Below the pieces are notes generated by a model. That model ran no database searches and had not been told where the DNA came from. It saw only the letters and a list, made by a program, of their open reading frames with translations. 64,000 nucleotides of DNA, taken from positions 1 through 64,000 of the forward strand of contig JAGBGO010000027.1 in assembly GCA_017935905.1 (NCBI GenBank), read 5' to 3'. Made by a program: the position numbers and the translations under genes. Shown here piece after piece: positions 2,505-39,422 of the stretch. Source of the DNA: Clostridia bacterium. GTDB lineage: Bacteria > Bacillota > Clostridia > UBA1212 > UBA1255. Position 1 is the first letter of the stretch. Every line of letters begins with the position of its first letter.

Positions 2505-4343
2505 TTACTCCTTATGAAAATGGTTATAAATCAATTCCGCAATTTTCCGTCCAAAGCCCGGTACCTGCATTAGCGCTTCTACTGAAGCCTCCCGAATTTT
2601 GGCAATGCTGCCAAAGTAACGCAATAACTCCAGTTTTCTTTTATCGCCCAGGCCTTTAATTTCATCCAAAGCCGTTCGGCGATACCGTTTTTCAGTGAGT
2701 TTGCGGTTGTAAGACACCGCTACCCGGTGGGTTTCATTTTGCACCGCCGTGACAAGGCGCCAGATGCCCGGATCATCTTTCAAATTAAATTCCCGGTATT
2801 GTCCGTCCACTTCGCCCAGCAGCGCCCGCGAGCGGTGGCGGTCGTCTTTCACCATACCGATTACGGGGATATGGATGGACATTTTACCCAACACACCCCG
2901 AACGGCGCCTACTTGCCCAATTCCGCCGTCAATGAGCAGCAAATCCGGCAGCACCTCAAAGCCCTTGCTCCCTTCCTGATACCGGGTAAAACGCCTTGTG
3001 AGCGTCTCTTCCATGGAGTCCGTGTCGCTCTGCTGCTTGACTTGTTTCATCTTAAATAACCGATACTCGCTTTTGGCGGGCTTGCCCCCTACGAACACCA
3101 CCATGGAGGCGTTGATTTCGCTGTCCCCCAAGTTAGAGATATCGTAGGATTCAATCCGCTCCGGAAGTACGGGCAGATCGTAAATTTCCTGCAACCGGGA
3201 AAGGGTTTTATATTCCGCCTCGCCGCCGGTTCCCGTCATCATGGATTTCTCCCGATTGAGCAGGGCGAGGGCGGCATTTTCCCGGACAAGATCGCAAATC
3301 TTTCGCTTGTCCCCTCGCTGCGGCTGAAGGATTTCGCACTTGCGGCCCCGAAGCTCCGTGAGCCAGCCGGAAAGGGTCTCCCCTTCCAGGGCATCTCCTA
3401 CATATACTTTCGGGGGCACGTACTGATGTTCATTGTAAAATTGCTGAATAAAGGCGGTCAAAACCTCCCCCGGGGCTTCTTCCCCGGCGCCTTCGAAGAT
3501 AAAATATTCTCTGCCCAGGACTTTTCCCCCGCGGATAAAGAAGATCTGCACGCAGGCATCCACCTGATTCCGGGCCACCGCCACGGCGTCGAAGTCGTCT
3601 TCCGACAGAAGCGAAATTTTCTGTTTCTCTTGCAGGCGCTCCAAGGCTTTCAGCCGCTGCCGATAAGCGGCCGCCAATTCAAATTCCAGTTTACTTGCTG
3701 CCGCCTCCATCATCTCACGAAGTTTTCCTGCCACTGCGTCTTGCTTACCGGAAAGGAAATCCAGCACTTGATCCACCAAGATTTGGTATTCTTGCTCCGA
3801 AATCTTACCGCAGCAAGCCCCGCGGCACAGCCCGATGTGATAGTTGAGGCACGGCCGGTCGTGGGTTTTCTCTGTAATTTTCTTCTTGCAGGGGCGCAAG
3901 GGTAAAATATTCTTAATGGCTTCTAACGTCTGCTCCACGGTCCACCCGCTGAAATAAGGGCCAAAGTATTTCGCCCCATCTTTCTCAATCTTTCTTGCCA
4001 GCATCACTCTGGGGAAACGCTCGTTCACCGTTACTTTAATATACGGAAAGCCTTTGTCGTCTTTGAGAAGCACGTTGTATTTGGGTTTATATTTCTTAAT
4101 GAGATTGTTCTCCAGGAGCAGGGCTTCGTATTCGCTGTCGCAGAGAATGTATTCAAACCGGTGAATTTTAGAGATCATCACCGTGATTCTTTGGCTATGA
4201 GGAATATTCTGGAAATAAGAGCGCAAGCGATTCTTGAGGACTACGGCTTTGCCTACGTAAAGGACACCGTCTTCCTCGTCTCGCATAATATATACGCCGG
4301 GTTTCTCCGGAACTTTGGATAATTCTTCTTTAAAACGTTCCAT
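2505..4343 (-). CDS. uvrC: Excinuclease ABC subunit C
   Basis: Makes the dual incisions during nucleotide excision repair together with UvrA and UvrB. The 612-residue protein has a GIY-YIG nuclease domain at the N-terminus (GVY at 16-18, YVG at 29-31), a Cys-rich patch (RPCKKKITEK then RPCLNYHIGLCRGACC), a UVR motif in the middle, the RNase H-like half, and helix-hairpin-helix motifs at the end (LDEIKGLGDKRK, VPGFGRK). I place the start at 4343 because homologues begin MERFKEELSKVPEKPGVY; the 27 residues available upstream are unlike the family. No Shine-Dalgarno precedes this ATG, but a TATAAT box ends 9 bases before it, which suggests a leaderless mRNA. Confidence 0.95.
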   Translation of the reverse strand: MERFKEELSKVPEKPGVYIMRDEEDGVLYVGKAVVLKNRLRSYFQNIPHSQRITVMISKIHRFEYILCDSEYEALLLENNLIKKYKPKYNVLLKDDKGFPYIKVTVNERFPRVMLARKIEKDGAKYFGPYFSGWTVEQTLEAIKNILPLRPCKKKITEKTHDRPCLNYHIGLCRGACCGKISEQEYQILVDQVLDFLSGKQDAVAGKLREMMEAAASKLEFELAAAYRQRLKALERLQEKQKISLLSEDDFDAVAVARNQVDACVQIFFIRGGKVLGREYFIFEGAGEEAPGEVLTAFIQQFYNEHQYVPPKVYVGDALEGETLSGWLTELRGRKCEILQPQRGDKRKICDLVRENAALALLNREKSMMTGTGGEAEYKTLSRLQEIYDLPVLPERIESYDISNLGDSEINASMVVFVGGKPAKSEYRLFKMKQVKQQSDTDSMEETLTRRFTRYQEGSKGFEVLPDLLLIDGGIGQVGAVRGVLGKMSIHIPVIGMVKDDRHRSRALLGEVDGQYREFNLKDDPGIWRLVTAVQNETHRVAVSYNRKLTEKRYRRTALDEIKGLGDKRKLELLRYFGSIAKIREASVEALMQVPGFGRKIAELIYNHFHKE

Positions 4344-29535: not shown

Positions 29536-29710
29536 TTTTGGGCAATACAGCTTATTTTTACACCCTACTGCCCAAATATTTTATAAAAACACCAGTCCAG
29601 AGCCATTTTCCCGTGTTTTGAGACGTTTTTTGGGCAATAGCCAGGTAAAAAACGTCTTTATACCCAAACCTTGGGCAATAACCCTTAAAAAACAAGTTTG
29701 ATGCCCAAAC
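29536..29710. repeat. Three inverted-repeat units with TTGGGCA arms and 24-bp spacing
   Basis: TTGGGCA occurs at 29538, 29630 and 29671. Each is followed after exactly 24 bases by its complement TGCCCAA (29569, 29702) or TACCCAA (29661). Each left arm continues ATA, and each spacer contains an A or T tract of five to six. The array fills the 200 bases between the -35 box of the acyl-CoA ligase gene and the end of folD; no ORF is present. Confidence 0.8.
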
Positions 29711-34959: not shown

Positions 34960-35184
34960 TTATTCAAAATAACTTTTCAGTTCCACATAAATCCCTTTGC
35001 GCCGGAGGATTTTTTCCGCTGTCTCCCGAAAATGCTCCGGGAATTGCACGCTGTATCCACAGCCCATTTTACCGGACTTTAACGCCTCCGGAGTGTTCAC
35101 AACTCCCGCCGGAACGCCCGCCGACCGCAAAAGTTGCTGCACTTGCAGCGCTTTGCTCTGGGGACCCAAATTAACGTAAATCAC
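34960..35184 (-). CDS. DUF3343-like small protein (putative Se/S carrier-like)
   Basis: A 74-residue protein with the layout of the DUF3343 family: an N-terminal strand, a helix with QSKALQVQQLLRSAGVP, and a single conserved Cys in KMGCGYSVQF. Family members occur near selenium/sulfur and cysteine-desulfurase genes, but no function is proven. The start is GTG at 35184, overlapping ispD by 14 bases with GAGGAGG inside the ispD end. A terminator follows. Confidence 0.6.
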   Translation of the reverse strand: MIYVNLGPQSKALQVQQLLRSAGVPAGVVNTPEALKSGKMGCGYSVQFPEHFRETAEKILRRKGIYVELKSYFE

Positions 35185-35929
35185 CTGTTTGAGAAGCCTC
35201 CTCTTCGCTTTGCAGTATACTTAACAATATGCGCAAATCCGACCGATTGGTGACTTTCAAATTGCCCGGATTGCCCGGACAGATGCCAACCTGCTGTCCT
35301 TCCGGCAAACATTCTTCCATATACAAAACCAAACCGGTGTCGTCCGTAATTTCCGGAACGTCGGCGGCCTCTTTGGAAAGGGCATTCTCGTAAAATAGAT
35401 GGGCTTTATGAATCACGCCGTAGCGGAAGCTTTGGGGCGTTTGCACGTTCCACAAAAATTTCCTGGGCGGAATGGAAGCAAGGTTCTCCCCATCGCTGCT
35501 GATCACAATGGTATCCACCGTCTTCTCTGCGGTGACACATGCGCCTTTGGATTTCGCCATGGCGATATTGGCACTGACGGTTGCCGGTGTAATATTGGGT
35601 CGCACGCCGTCGTGAATCAACACAACGTCTTCGGCGGCGCAAACTTCTGCCAGCGCCTCAACGCCTTGATAAGAAGATTCTCTCCGGGTGGCACCCCCGG
35701 GAAGCACTTTTTGTAATTTAGAGATTTCATAATCCCGAACGATTTCCCATACCGTATCCCGGCTTTCTTCCGGGCAAACTACGTAGATGGCATCAATTTC
35801 CGGATGATGCTGAAAAACCTCCAAGGTGTAGGCAAGAATGGGTTTGCCGCCTACGTGTAAAAATTGTTTCGGGATTTCCGTTCCCATACGGCGGCCCATA
35901 CCGGCTGCCAGAACAAGTGCTACGTTCAT
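35171..35929 (-). CDS. ispD: 2-C-methyl-D-erythritol 4-phosphate cytidylyltransferase
   Basis: Third step of the MEP isoprenoid pathway, transferring CMP from CTP. The 252-residue protein has the nucleotide loop LAAGMGRRMG with KQF, the metal Asp in LIHDGVRPN, QTPQSFRY, ITDDTGLVL and the substrate loop GNLKVTNRSDL. TarI-type ribitol-5-phosphate enzymes are similar, but no teichoic acid genes are nearby. AAAGGAG precedes the ATG. Its promoter is divergent from that of ileS. Confidence 0.93.
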   Translation of the reverse strand: MNVALVLAAGMGRRMGTEIPKQFLHVGGKPILAYTLEVFQHHPEIDAIYVVCPEESRDTVWEIVRDYEISKLQKVLPGGATRRESSYQGVEALAEVCAAEDVVLIHDGVRPNITPATVSANIAMAKSKGACVTAEKTVDTIVISSDGENLASIPPRKFLWNVQTPQSFRYGVIHKAHLFYENALSKEAADVPEITDDTGLVLYMEECLPEGQQVGICPGNPGNLKVTNRSDLRILLSILQSEEEASQTGDLR

Positions 35930-35963: not shown

Positions 35964-35992
35964 ATTATACACGGAAATGGTTTTATCGACAA
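35964..35992 (-). promoter_or_regulatory. ispD promoter
   Basis: On the minus strand TTGTCG (35992-35987), 17 bases, TATAAT (35969-35964). Confidence 0.8.
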
Positions 35993-35996
35993 GATT

Positions 35997-36158
35997 GGAC
36001 ACACAGGGGGATAAAATGACTGTTACGTGTCCGGCATTTTACCGATTTCCGGACACAAAACCCTTGCAAGCACCTCTATGTGTCCAAAATAAGCAAATTC
36101 GACCTGTCCAAGAGCACTTTTCCGGACACATATCGCCCTAAAAAGGTCGTTTGTGTCC
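35997..36158. repeat. Three inverted-repeat units with GGACAC arms and 23-24 bp spacing
   Basis: GGACAC at 35997, 36051 and 36124 is followed after 24, 23 and 23 bases by GTGTCC at 36027, 36080 and 36153. A lone TGTCC lies at 36105. Units 1 and 2 also face each other as GTGTCCGG-N14-CCGGACAC. The array fills the gap between the -35 boxes of ispD and ileS. The first and third spacers contain A-rich tracts (ATAAAATG, CTAAAAAGG). Confidence 0.8.
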
Positions 36159-36194: not shown

Positions 36195-36223
36195 TTGACT
36201 TTCGGGGCCTTTTGCGGTATTAT
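36195..36223 (+). promoter_or_regulatory. ileS promoter
   Basis: TTGACT (36195-36200), 17 bases, TATTAT (36218-36223). The leader is only about 25 bases, with GGAGGG before the ATG at 36255, so there is no room for a T-box. Confidence 0.85.
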
Positions 36224-36254
36224 GAACTGAACTATGTTTTATTGGAGGGACTGT

Positions 36255-39200
36255 ATGTACGAGAAAGTATCTACGGACTTAAATTTTGTTGAGCGCGAGA
36301 AGAAAGTACAGAAATATTGGGAAGACAACGATATCTTCCGCAAGAGCATTGAAGAACGGGCGCAAGGTGAGACGTACACCTTCTACGACGGCCCTCCCAC
36401 GGCCAACGGAAAGCCGCATATCGGACACGTTTTAACCCGTGTTATTAAAGATATGATTCCCCGTTACCGCACTATGAAAGGCTACAAAGTCCTGCGCAAG
36501 GCCGGTTGGGATACCCACGGACTTCCTGTTGAATTGGAAGTCGAGAAGATGCTGGGTTTGGACGGCAAAGAGCAGATTGAAGAGTACGGTATGGATCCGT
36601 TTATTCAGAAGTGCAAGGAAAGCGTTTGGAAATACAAGGGTATGTGGGAAGATTTTTCCGGCACCGTTGGTTTCTGGGCGGATATGGATGATCCTTACGT
36701 AACCTATGATAATAACTTTATCGAATCCGAGTGGTGGGCACTGAAGCAAATTTGGGAGAAGGGTCTTTTGTACAAAGGCTTTAAGATTGTTCCCTACTGC
36801 CCCCGTTGCGGAACACCCCTCTCCTCTCACGAAGTGGCGCAAGGGTACAAATCCGTGAAAGAGCGTTCTGCTATCGTTCGTTTTAAGGTAAAGGGCGAAG
36901 ACGCCTACTTCCTGGCGTGGACAACCACGCCCTGGACGCTGCCTTCCAACGTAGCCCTTTGTGTAAACCCCGCAGACGAATACTGCAAAGTAAAGGCTGC
37001 CGACGGCTACACTTACTATATGGCGAAAGCATTGTTGGATACCGTACTGGGCAAACTTGCAACAGACGGACAAGCCGCTTATGAAATTTTGGATTCTTTC
37101 CCCGGCACCGCTTTAGAACACAGAGAGTATGAGCCTTTGTTTGCTTGCGCAGGCGTTTGTGCCGACAAACAAAAGAAGAAAGGCTTCTTCGTAACCTGTG
37201 ACAGCTACGTTACCATGTCCGACGGTACCGGTATCGTACACATTGCACCGGCCTTCGGTGAAGATGACGCCCGGGTTGGCCGCAACTACGACCTTCCTTT
37301 CGTACAGTTTGTAGATGGACAAGGTAATATGACGGAAGAGACGCCCTATGCAGGCGTATTCGTAAAGAAAGCCGATCCCTTGGTATTGGTAGATTTAGAC
37401 AAAGAAGGCAAACTCTTTGACGCGCCTAAGTTCGAGCATGACTATCCCCACTGCTGGAGATGTGACACGCCTTTGATTTACTACGCAAGAGAGTCCTGGT
37501 TCATCAAGATGACCGCCGTACGGAATGACTTGATCAAGAACAACAATACCATTAACTGGATTCCCGAGAGCATTGGTAAAGGCCGTTTCGGCGACTGGCT
37601 GAACAACGTACAGGATTGGGGTATCAGCCGAAACCGTTATTGGGGTACGCCTTTGAATATTTGGGAATGTCCTTGCGGACACCGCCATGCCATCGGTTCT
37701 ATTGCCGAGCTCAAAGAGATGTCGGATAACTGTCCCGATGACATCGAACTGCACCGCCCTTATATTGACGCGGTAACCCTTCGCTGCCCTGAGTGCGGCG
37801 GTGAGATGACCCGTGTAAAGGAAGTAATCGACTGCTGGTTCGACTCCGGTGCTATGCCTTTTGCACAATGGCACTATCCTTTTGAGAACAAAGAAATTTT
37901 CGACGACAACTTCCCGGCAGACTTTATTAGTGAAGCCGTAGACCAGACGAGAGGTTGGTTCTATTCCTTGCTGGCCATTTCGACGCTCCTCTTTGACAAA
38001 GCGCCCTACAAGAACGTTATTGTATTGGGCTTAGTGCAAGATGAGAACGGACAGAAGATGTCTAAATCCAAAGGCAACGCGGTAGATCCTTTCGACGCCC
38101 TCAATACCTTTGGTGCCGATGCCATTCGTTGGTATTTCTATTCCAACTCTGCGCCTTGGCTTCCCAACCGTTTCTACGCAAAAGCCGTTACGGAAGGTCA
38201 GAGAAAGGTACTTGGCACGCTGTGGAACACCTACGCATTCTACGTACTGTACGCCAACATCGACAAGTTCAATCCTTTGGAGTACAAGTTGGAATACGAC
38301 AAACTTTCCGTGATGGACAAATGGATGCTTTCCCGTCTCAATACGTTAGTAAAGACGGTAGACGGTTGCTTAAACGACTACAAGATTACGGAAACCGCCC
38401 GCGCTTTGTCTGATTTCATTGACGAACTCAGTAACTGGTACGTGCGCTGCTCCAGAGAACGTTTCTGGGCAAAAGGGATGCCGCAGGATAAGATCAACGC
38501 CTATATGACGCTGTACACCACCATCGTAACCTACTGTAAGTTGGCAGCGCCTATGCTTCCGTTTATGACCGAGGATATTTACCTTAATCTGGTAGCCGGC
38601 ATCGATGCAAATGCACCCAAGAGCATTCACCTTTGCGACTTCCCCGTAGCAGACGAAGCGCTGATCGACGCAGATTTGGAAGCCGGTATGGAGAAAGTTC
38701 TGGAAATCGTCGTACTTGGCAGAAGTGCCAGAAACAACGCTGCGATCAAGAACCGCCAGCCCCTTGCAAACATGTACGTGAAGGCAGAGGGGACGTTGGA
38801 CGGCTATTTTACCGAGATTATTAAGAACGAGCTGAACGTACAGAACGTTGCCTTCGTAGACAACACCGATGCGTTCCTCACCTACTCCTTTAAGCCCCAG
38901 CTTCGTACTTTGGGCCGCAAGTTCGGCAAGGACATCGGGCGTGTGAAGGAATATTTGGCTGCCCTTACCGGCAAGGATGCGGCAGAGGCTATGAAGACGC
39001 TGAAAGAAACCGGTTCTATGGATATCGTGTTAGACGGCGTTGCAACTCCCGTTACGGAAGAAGATCTGCTTATTGAATCTGCCAAGTTGCCGGGCTTCGA
39101 GGCACAAGAAGATAAGGGAATTACGGTAATCTTAGATACCACCTTGACGCCGGAGTTGATCGAGGCAGGTTTCGTGCGTGAATTGATCAGCCGTATCCAG

Positions 39201-39422
39201 ACCATGCGGAAAGAGGCCGGTTTCGAAGTAACGGATCACATCGAAATCTTCGAGACAGGCAGCGAGGAAATCCGCAAGGTGCTTCTTGCAAACGAAGCGG
39301 AGATCAAAGCAGAGACGTTGTCCGAGGCTTTGACGGTGGATGCGGAAATTCCCGCAGATGCTTATGCCAAGGAATGGGATATTAACGGCAAGAACGTAAC
39401 TTTGGCGGTGCGCCGGGTTTAA
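36255..39422 (+). CDS. ileS: Isoleucyl-tRNA synthetase (IleS2-like)
   Basis: Charges tRNA-Ile in the cytoplasm. The 1055-residue protein has HIGH at 55-58 (NGKPHIGHVL) and KMSKS at 601-605 (GQKMSKSKGN), an editing domain between them with WTTTPWTLPSN, and zinc-type Cys pairs (CPRCG; CPECGG). A length above 1000 residues and the PPTANGKPHIGH form point to the IleS2 type seen in many Clostridia, which is often less sensitive to mupirocin (family knowledge, not tested). ATG 36255 follows GGAGGG. The gene stands alone, with its own promoter and terminator. Confidence 0.97.
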   Translation: MYEKVSTDLNFVEREKKVQKYWEDNDIFRKSIEERAQGETYTFYDGPPTANGKPHIGHVLTRVIKDMIPRYRTMKGYKVLRKAGWDTHGLPVELEVEKMLGLDGKEQIEEYGMDPFIQKCKESVWKYKGMWEDFSGTVGFWADMDDPYVTYDNNFIESEWWALKQIWEKGLLYKGFKIVPYCPRCGTPLSSHEVAQGYKSVKERSAIVRFKVKGEDAYFLAWTTTPWTLPSNVALCVNPADEYCKVKAADGYTYYMAKALLDTVLGKLATDGQAAYEILDSFPGTALEHREYEPLFACAGVCADKQKKKGFFVTCDSYVTMSDGTGIVHIAPAFGEDDARVGRNYDLPFVQFVDGQGNMTEETPYAGVFVKKADPLVLVDLDKEGKLFDAPKFEHDYPHCWRCDTPLIYYARESWFIKMTAVRNDLIKNNNTINWIPESIGKGRFGDWLNNVQDWGISRNRYWGTPLNIWECPCGHRHAIGSIAELKEMSDNCPDDIELHRPYIDAVTLRCPECGGEMTRVKEVIDCWFDSGAMPFAQWHYPFENKEIFDDNFPADFISEAVDQTRGWFYSLLAISTLLFDKAPYKNVIVLGLVQDENGQKMSKSKGNAVDPFDALNTFGADAIRWYFYSNSAPWLPNRFYAKAVTEGQRKVLGTLWNTYAFYVLYANIDKFNPLEYKLEYDKLSVMDKWMLSRLNTLVKTVDGCLNDYKITETARALSDFIDELSNWYVRCSRERFWAKGMPQDKINAYMTLYTTIVTYCKLAAPMLPFMTEDIYLNLVAGIDANAPKSIHLCDFPVADEALIDADLEAGMEKVLEIVVLGRSARNNAAIKNRQPLANMYVKAEGTLDGYFTEIIKNELNVQNVAFVDNTDAFLTYSFKPQLRTLGRKFGKDIGRVKEYLAALTGKDAAEAMKTLKETGSMDIVLDGVATPVTEEDLLIESAKLPGFEAQEDKGITVILDTTLTPELIEAGFVRELISRIQTMRKEAGFEVTDHIEIFETGSEEIRKVLLANEAEIKAETLSEALTVDAEIPADAYAKEWDINGKNVTLAVRRV

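Follow-up and report, generated by a model that had tools for sequence, protein, structure and literature searches.

The gap between ispD and ileS in the genome studied here, from a genus of gut Clostridia, carries a three-unit array of widely spaced inverted repeats, one member of a family of intergenic arrays whose arms fall into several sequence classes. We consider it probable that these arrays are REP-like intergenic elements that arose by mobility and are retained as platforms for putative dimeric DNA-binding proteins, with which the sites co-evolve. An earlier note on this DNA had favored a family of sites, or else small mobile units, with varying arms over a single operator, a reading supported by the several arm classes and the unrelated flanks described below. 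What that note missed were the fixed layouts of two to four units, their helical phasing, the constraint on the arms in place and the changes of class by whole arrays.

The window, a stretch of 64,000 nucleotides from Clostridia bacterium (contig JAGBGO010000027.1), belongs to a genome of 1.88 Mb in 84 contigs that is 92% complete (G000). Six exact GGACAC/GTGTCC sites lie in the gap between ileS and a gene that we take to be ispD from sequence similarity, at positions 35997, 36027, 36051, 36080, 36124 and 36153. The coordinates confirm the earlier claim that these sites pair as three units (36, 35 and 35 bp long, with 24, 23 and 23 bp between arms), and the units are separated by gaps of 18 bp and 38 bp. 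The features of the region are as follows.

35171 to 35929, minus strand: ispD, the left neighbour, with its start at 35929; at the DNA level it is 83% identical to its orthologous counterpart in G001, a sister species in the same genus
35964 to 35992, minus strand: probable ispD promoter, read from the sequence, with -35 TTGTCG at 35992-35987, -10 TATAAT at 35969-35964 and a 17-bp spacer
35997 to 36032: unit 1, GGACAC-N24-GTGTCC, with a central A-tract (ATAAAAT) and one base more than the usual 35-bp unit
36033 to 36050: gap between units 1 and 2, 18 bp and T-rich, of fixed length in the GGACAC and GGGTAC classes
36051 to 36085: unit 2, GGACAC-N23-GTGTCC
36086 to 36123: gap between units 2 and 3, 38 bp (37-38 bp in all copies), holding a nonconserved CTGTCC at 36104-36109
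36124 to 36158: unit 3, GGACAC-N23-GTGTCC
36195 to 36223, plus strand: probable ileS promoter, with -35 TTGACT at 36195-36200, -10 TATTAT at 36218-36223 and a 17-bp spacer
36255 to 39422, plus strand: ileS, the right neighbour, with GGAGGG before the ATG at 36255; an in-frame upstream ATG is listed at 36234

On its left, the array begins 5 bp upstream of the -35 element of the probable ispD promoter; on its right, 37 bp separate its end from the -35 element of the probable ileS promoter. None of 5,000 dinucleotide shuffles of the 311-bp ispD-ileS region contained three units of the same word and only one contained two, and these shuffles, together with the reversed-pattern controls below, exclude a chance origin of the window array. 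A seventh, partial site had also been counted with the array. The CTGTCC in question is present, but it is probably a coincidence rather than part of the array, since the 38-bp gap that holds it varies among copies and none of the others shows an equivalent site.

Across the window's own genome, GGACAC-N20-27-GTGTCC matched 13 times, while the reversed control pattern did not match at all. Twelve of the 13 matches fall in five three-unit arrays, and the remaining match is a single unit close to the end of a contig. The window array and one on contig C58 are exact in all three units, and each of the other three has a further unit with one arm mismatch. The layout is constant at 35-18-35-37/38-35 bp (the first unit of the window being 36 bp), in either orientation. 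Elsewhere among GTDB species genomes, an exact GGACAC double unit occurs only in a metagenome-assembled genome of the same genus, Clostridia bacterium RGIG7274 from water-buffalo cecum, and no IMG/VR contig carried one. A phage origin was rejected after arrays of five classes were searched for in IMG/VR and none was found. Samples of G002, G003, G007, G008 and G018 (~60 to 120 kb each), too small to speak against arrays in these genomes, contained no comparable array.

A scan for inverted-repeat clusters, run blind to arm sequence over ~630 kb of stretches of G000, about one third of the genome, returned 17 clusters of repeated inverted 6-mers, compared to 0 in reversed and 3 in complement controls. 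The majority of these clusters belong to four arm classes, GGACAC, GGGTAC, TTGGGCA and GGTCGT. Counts in G000 and G001, respectively, were 25 and 11 for GGGTAC units (controls 0), 58 and 36 for TGGGC-N24-27-GCCCA, the pattern of the TTGGGCA class (controls 5 and 2), and 12 and 22 for GGTCGT (controls 1 and 0). In G006, which represents a sister genus, AAGACA-N22-TGTCTT occurred 40 times (control 0), and three further species of that genus had 0 to 1. Also seen were units of 36 bp that are almost complete palindromes, TTGGGCGTATAC...GTATACGCCCAA, which form a sub-class and occur in pairs 39 bp apart (L046:314-388, L055:3874-3948, L109:1500-1575 and L147:1551-1625); its deviations from a palindrome resemble G-T/A-C pairs.

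The window holds a second array, of the TTGGGCA class, at 29.5 kb (29538-29708), which consists of three 38-bp units with one imperfect arm.

29538 to 29575: unit A, TTGGGCA-N24-TGCCCAA
29630 to 29667: unit B, 54 bp beyond unit A, with one mismatch in its right arm (ACCCAA)
29671 to 29708: unit C, 3 bp beyond unit B

The earlier note had likened the two arrays to each other. They do share a general architecture, but their unit spacings differ, at 92 and 41 bp centre to centre here and 53.5 and 73 bp in the ispD-ileS gap.

Written as alternating unit and gap lengths in base pairs, the layouts are 35-18-35-38-35 for GGACAC and GGGTAC arrays, 38-3-38-54-38 for TTGGGCA, 35-7-35-39-35-7(17)-35 for GGTCGT and 34-29-34-40-34 for AAGACA. 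Arrays of the GGACAC and GGGTAC classes can be aligned with one another, the T-rich 18-bp gap and the central A-tracts being common to both. Centre-to-centre unit spacings cluster at 39, 41-42, 52-53, 62-63, 72-74, 84-85 and 92-93 bp. Tested against a 10.5-bp period, they give a mean resultant length R of 0.82 to 0.84 with a phase near 0 (P = 0.008 on seven spacing classes, which is few independent classes), with the 92-93-bp spacing fitting only roughly. Spacings near multiples of 10.5 bp suggest that the units lie on one face of the helix.

Sequence conservation is concentrated in the arms, whose six bases carry ~2 bits of information each; the value falls to ~0.3 within 2 to 3 bases inward or outward. 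Measured against shuffled sequences, interior complementarity is at expectation in the GGACAC and GGGTAC classes and slightly lower than that in TTGGGC and GGTCGT, and since the interiors are no more self-complementary than shuffles, simple RNA hairpins are unlikely. An element acting at the RNA level, with arms pairing as stems in the transcript, could account for the compensatory pairs by which GGACAC and GGGTAC arms differ, and both array strands fold better than shuffles (z of -2.8 and -2.7), as is expected of any inverted repeat. We nevertheless regard this explanation as very improbable. The predicted plus-strand fold joins arms from different units, the interiors lack complementarity, the single-arm variant ATGTCC is seen on either strand, arrays stand in either orientation to genes, and all units of one locus change alike. 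An Rfam search gave no family match, and a riboswitch or hairpin was likewise rejected.

The key comparisons are between two species of one genus, G000 and G001, both metagenome assembled, which are 83 to 89% identical at ispD/ileS. In three pairs of orthologous arrays, differences fall largely outside the arms: 2 of 36 arm positions versus 42 of 69 interior positions in the first pair (Fisher's exact test, P = 1.5e-8), 3 of 36 versus 38 of 69 in the second (P = 1.8e-6) and 1 of 36 versus 15 of 69 in the third (P = 0.01). Copies of the AAGACA element in G006 have arms that are 95% identical, compared to 72% for the rest. Near-fixed arms next to diverging interiors at orthologous sites show that the arms are constrained where they sit, a pattern not explained by the passive decay of a dead element. 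The same constraint points, if indirectly, to a benefit of the arrays for the cell.

Arms also change in concert. At two orthologous loci, the rubrerythrin locus and L037/L018, the sequence to either side of the array aligns collinearly, yet in G000 every one of the six half-sites is GGGTAC and in G001 every one is of the GGACAC type. Class is kept at other orthologous loci, both for GGACAC (L006/L021 and L007/L022) and for GGGTAC (L045/L085, L133/L229 and L134/L230). In the TTGGGC class, base 7 of the half-site, which the search pattern left free, is almost always A in G000 (59 of 60 half-sites) and mostly G in G001 (27 of 34), orthologous arrays included. A trans-acting reader with a shifted specificity would explain such concerted changes. 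Separately, a GGTCGT array in G001 (L227:1688-1849, contig C114) and a GGACAC array in G000 (L043:14079-14239, contig C18) apparently occupy one intergenic region, and as the two classes differ in geometry, this suggests replacement of one class by another rather than base-by-base change.

Mobility, the other part of the earlier reading, gains support from empty orthologous sites. The ispD-ileS array is absent from G001, where 77 bp separate the ispD and ileS alignments, compared to 258 in the window, and the TTGGGC array on contig C87 of G001 is absent from the orthologous site in G000. Such presence and absence at orthologous sites is the behavior expected of MITEs. Near-duplicate arrays are found in both species; in G001, a four-unit GGTCGT array occurs twice (L020:3269-3481 and 4126-4338, contig C79) with 87% identity over 213 bp. 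This pair flanks a gene for a 194-amino-acid membrane protein, as if array and gene had been duplicated together. In G000, three near-identical GGTCGT arrays (L028:1890-2320, L036:360-790 and L038:3640-4050) end alike in GAGACAGCCCC, which suggests that a miniature transposon carries them. On their opposite side stands GGGGCTGTCTC, whole or decayed. The AAGACA elements of G006, which are younger copies, are ~225 bp long and 73 to 80% identical, with recurring similar ends; a search with these ends for an autonomous partner led mostly back to array copies already known, and it turned up no element of greater length. Around the window array no terminal inverted repeats were seen, and the ispD-ileS site shows no clear target duplication.

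One possibility is that the arrays are passive miniature transposons (MITE- or TIME-like), their arms being transposase or resolvase sites and their copies decaying remnants without a role. The empty sites, the near-duplicates and the shared ends in G006 and among the three GGTCGT copies all favor this, and the three-site layout recalls the res sites of Tn3 and the TIMEs derived from Tn3 (PMC4133298). Decay should strike arms and interior equally, yet orthologous arms are kept while interiors have diverged, whole classes shift arm bases together, and G000 yielded no resolvase gene. On balance, this explanation appears unlikely.

Genomic context bears on whether the arrays are conventional operators, that is, the regulon of a transcription factor with multidimer operators. 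Several GGACAC arrays do lie between divergent promoters (ispD-ileS, asnB-like/ABC and rubrerythrin), and the closeness of the window array to the likely ispD -35 element would suit an operator. However, arrays occupy divergent, tandem and convergent gaps, many of them 4 to 30 bp after stop codons. The flanking genes, among them those for a tRNA synthetase, an aldolase, an EF-G-like protein, rubrerythrin and permeases, have no common function, and orthologous genes in the sister species do without the array, the ileS promoter being conserved there all the same. We therefore judge conventional operators to be distinctly unlikely.

These data favor the model of REP-like elements kept as protein platforms. 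Each array would be a platform of two to four sites for a dimeric, sequence-specific DNA-binding protein. One dimer would occupy each unit, its two DNA-reading domains contacting the 6- to 8-bp arms (TGGACACA) ~29 bp apart centre to centre, while the exact sequence of the A-tract-centred interior would matter little. Units on the same face would let adjacent dimers touch and assemble into a single higher-order complex. Each arm class would have its own reader, the readers probably being related to one another. A shift in the specificity of one protein would drag all of its sites along, and a locus could move from one arm class to another. A protein that reads RNA stems is a less likely alternative to a DNA-binding reader. 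More tentatively, and with a probability that we place below even, the arrays could be a previously undescribed class of chromosomal nucleoprotein platform, defined by helically phased pairs of half-sites with wide spacing, in several orthogonal classes per genome, with a family of proteins of rapidly shifting specificity and dozens of dispersed sites changing in concert, up to six-half-site swaps in which position and geometry are kept.

A search for the sequence-reading protein among resolvase, Y1 transposase, WYL and PD-(D/E)XK-like candidates identified none. Serine recombinases/resolvases (PF00239) had no match in the 92%-complete G000 and two each in G001 and G006, with positive controls matched. 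Y1 transposases (PF01797) had no match in G000, at the same completeness, or in G001 and one in G006. In G006, a lone AAGACA unit (L128, C12:19686) lies ~0.6 kb from a stop-interrupted resolvase gene (C12:18627-19061), which may be a coincidence. WYL regulators were rejected as readers, as G000 has only one and the WYL loci of G001 and G006 lack an array of the matching class; a TTGGGCA array (L045:3059-3230, contig C16) lies directly upstream of that sole G000 gene.

A PD-(D/E)XK-like protein, which has no Pfam or NCBIfam match, is encoded at L037:6743-7549 (G000, contig C12) and L018:611-1399 (G001, contig C45), with an array ~50 bp upstream of the start in both. A paralogous fragment in G001 (L091:3-212, contig C53; 41% identity over 71 amino acids) has a two-unit GGGTACC array at a similar distance. 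As the reader, this protein was rejected on the grounds that a distant homologue has no array and no homologue lies near other array loci, leaving it a possible cognate protein and a lead. Should the arrays indeed serve co-evolving proteins as platforms, this genus would provide a natural experiment in which a regulator and dozens of sites shift specificity together, and a specific hunt for the protein becomes possible.

Several known systems invite comparison. Noc, MatP and SlmA each bind, as a dimeric protein, many palindromes across the chromosome, and those sites are generally single palindromes, short and with half-sites close together; the arrays described here are instead phased, multi-unit and of several arm classes. 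In a Tn3 res site, three dimer sites with outer palindromic arms follow one another, an anatomy that the arrays resemble; as small noncoding mobile elements they are also like TIMEs. The centres of res sites I and II are ~53 bp apart. Three units and a 53-bp spacing occur in the GGACAC and GGGTAC classes, but other classes have spacings of 39-42, 63 or 92 bp and two or four units. The arrays differ in that their units are of equal length; arms are conserved in place, G000 has no serine resolvase match, and no Tn3 terminal inverted repeats of ~38 bp were seen by eye around array copies.

BOX, RUP and SPRITE elements are modular sequence repeats. The arrays are likewise dispersed short intergenic repeats in a Gram-positive genome, as described for these small interspersed repeats of streptococci (PMC3049150), but by description they differ, as here only half-sites and spacing are conserved and several arm classes are interchangeable.

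The closest parallel in behavior is with REP/BIME and REPIN sequences, short extragenic palindromic repeats with several classes per genome and a proposed co-evolution of repeat and protein (RAYT, TnpA-REP) (PMC3116915). The arrays share with them an extragenic position, several sequence classes per genome, class-specific sequences and an absence of coding capacity. Membership in the REP/REPIN group through a RAYT (Y1) transposase nevertheless has next to no probability. The units are not hairpin-forming palindromes but 6- to 8-bp arms around a noncomplementary interior of ~23 bp, set in fixed layouts of two to four units in helical phase and present in tens, not hundreds, of copies. Since neither Y1 transposase nor resolvase genes were found in the 92%-complete G000, the arrays are judged to be neither REP/RAYT elements nor Tn3 res sites. 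The system is REP-like in its dynamics, yet on these features it falls outside the REP elements proper, and if our model is correct, the RAYT transposase to which REP-like intergenic populations are commonly attributed is not needed for such populations to exist.
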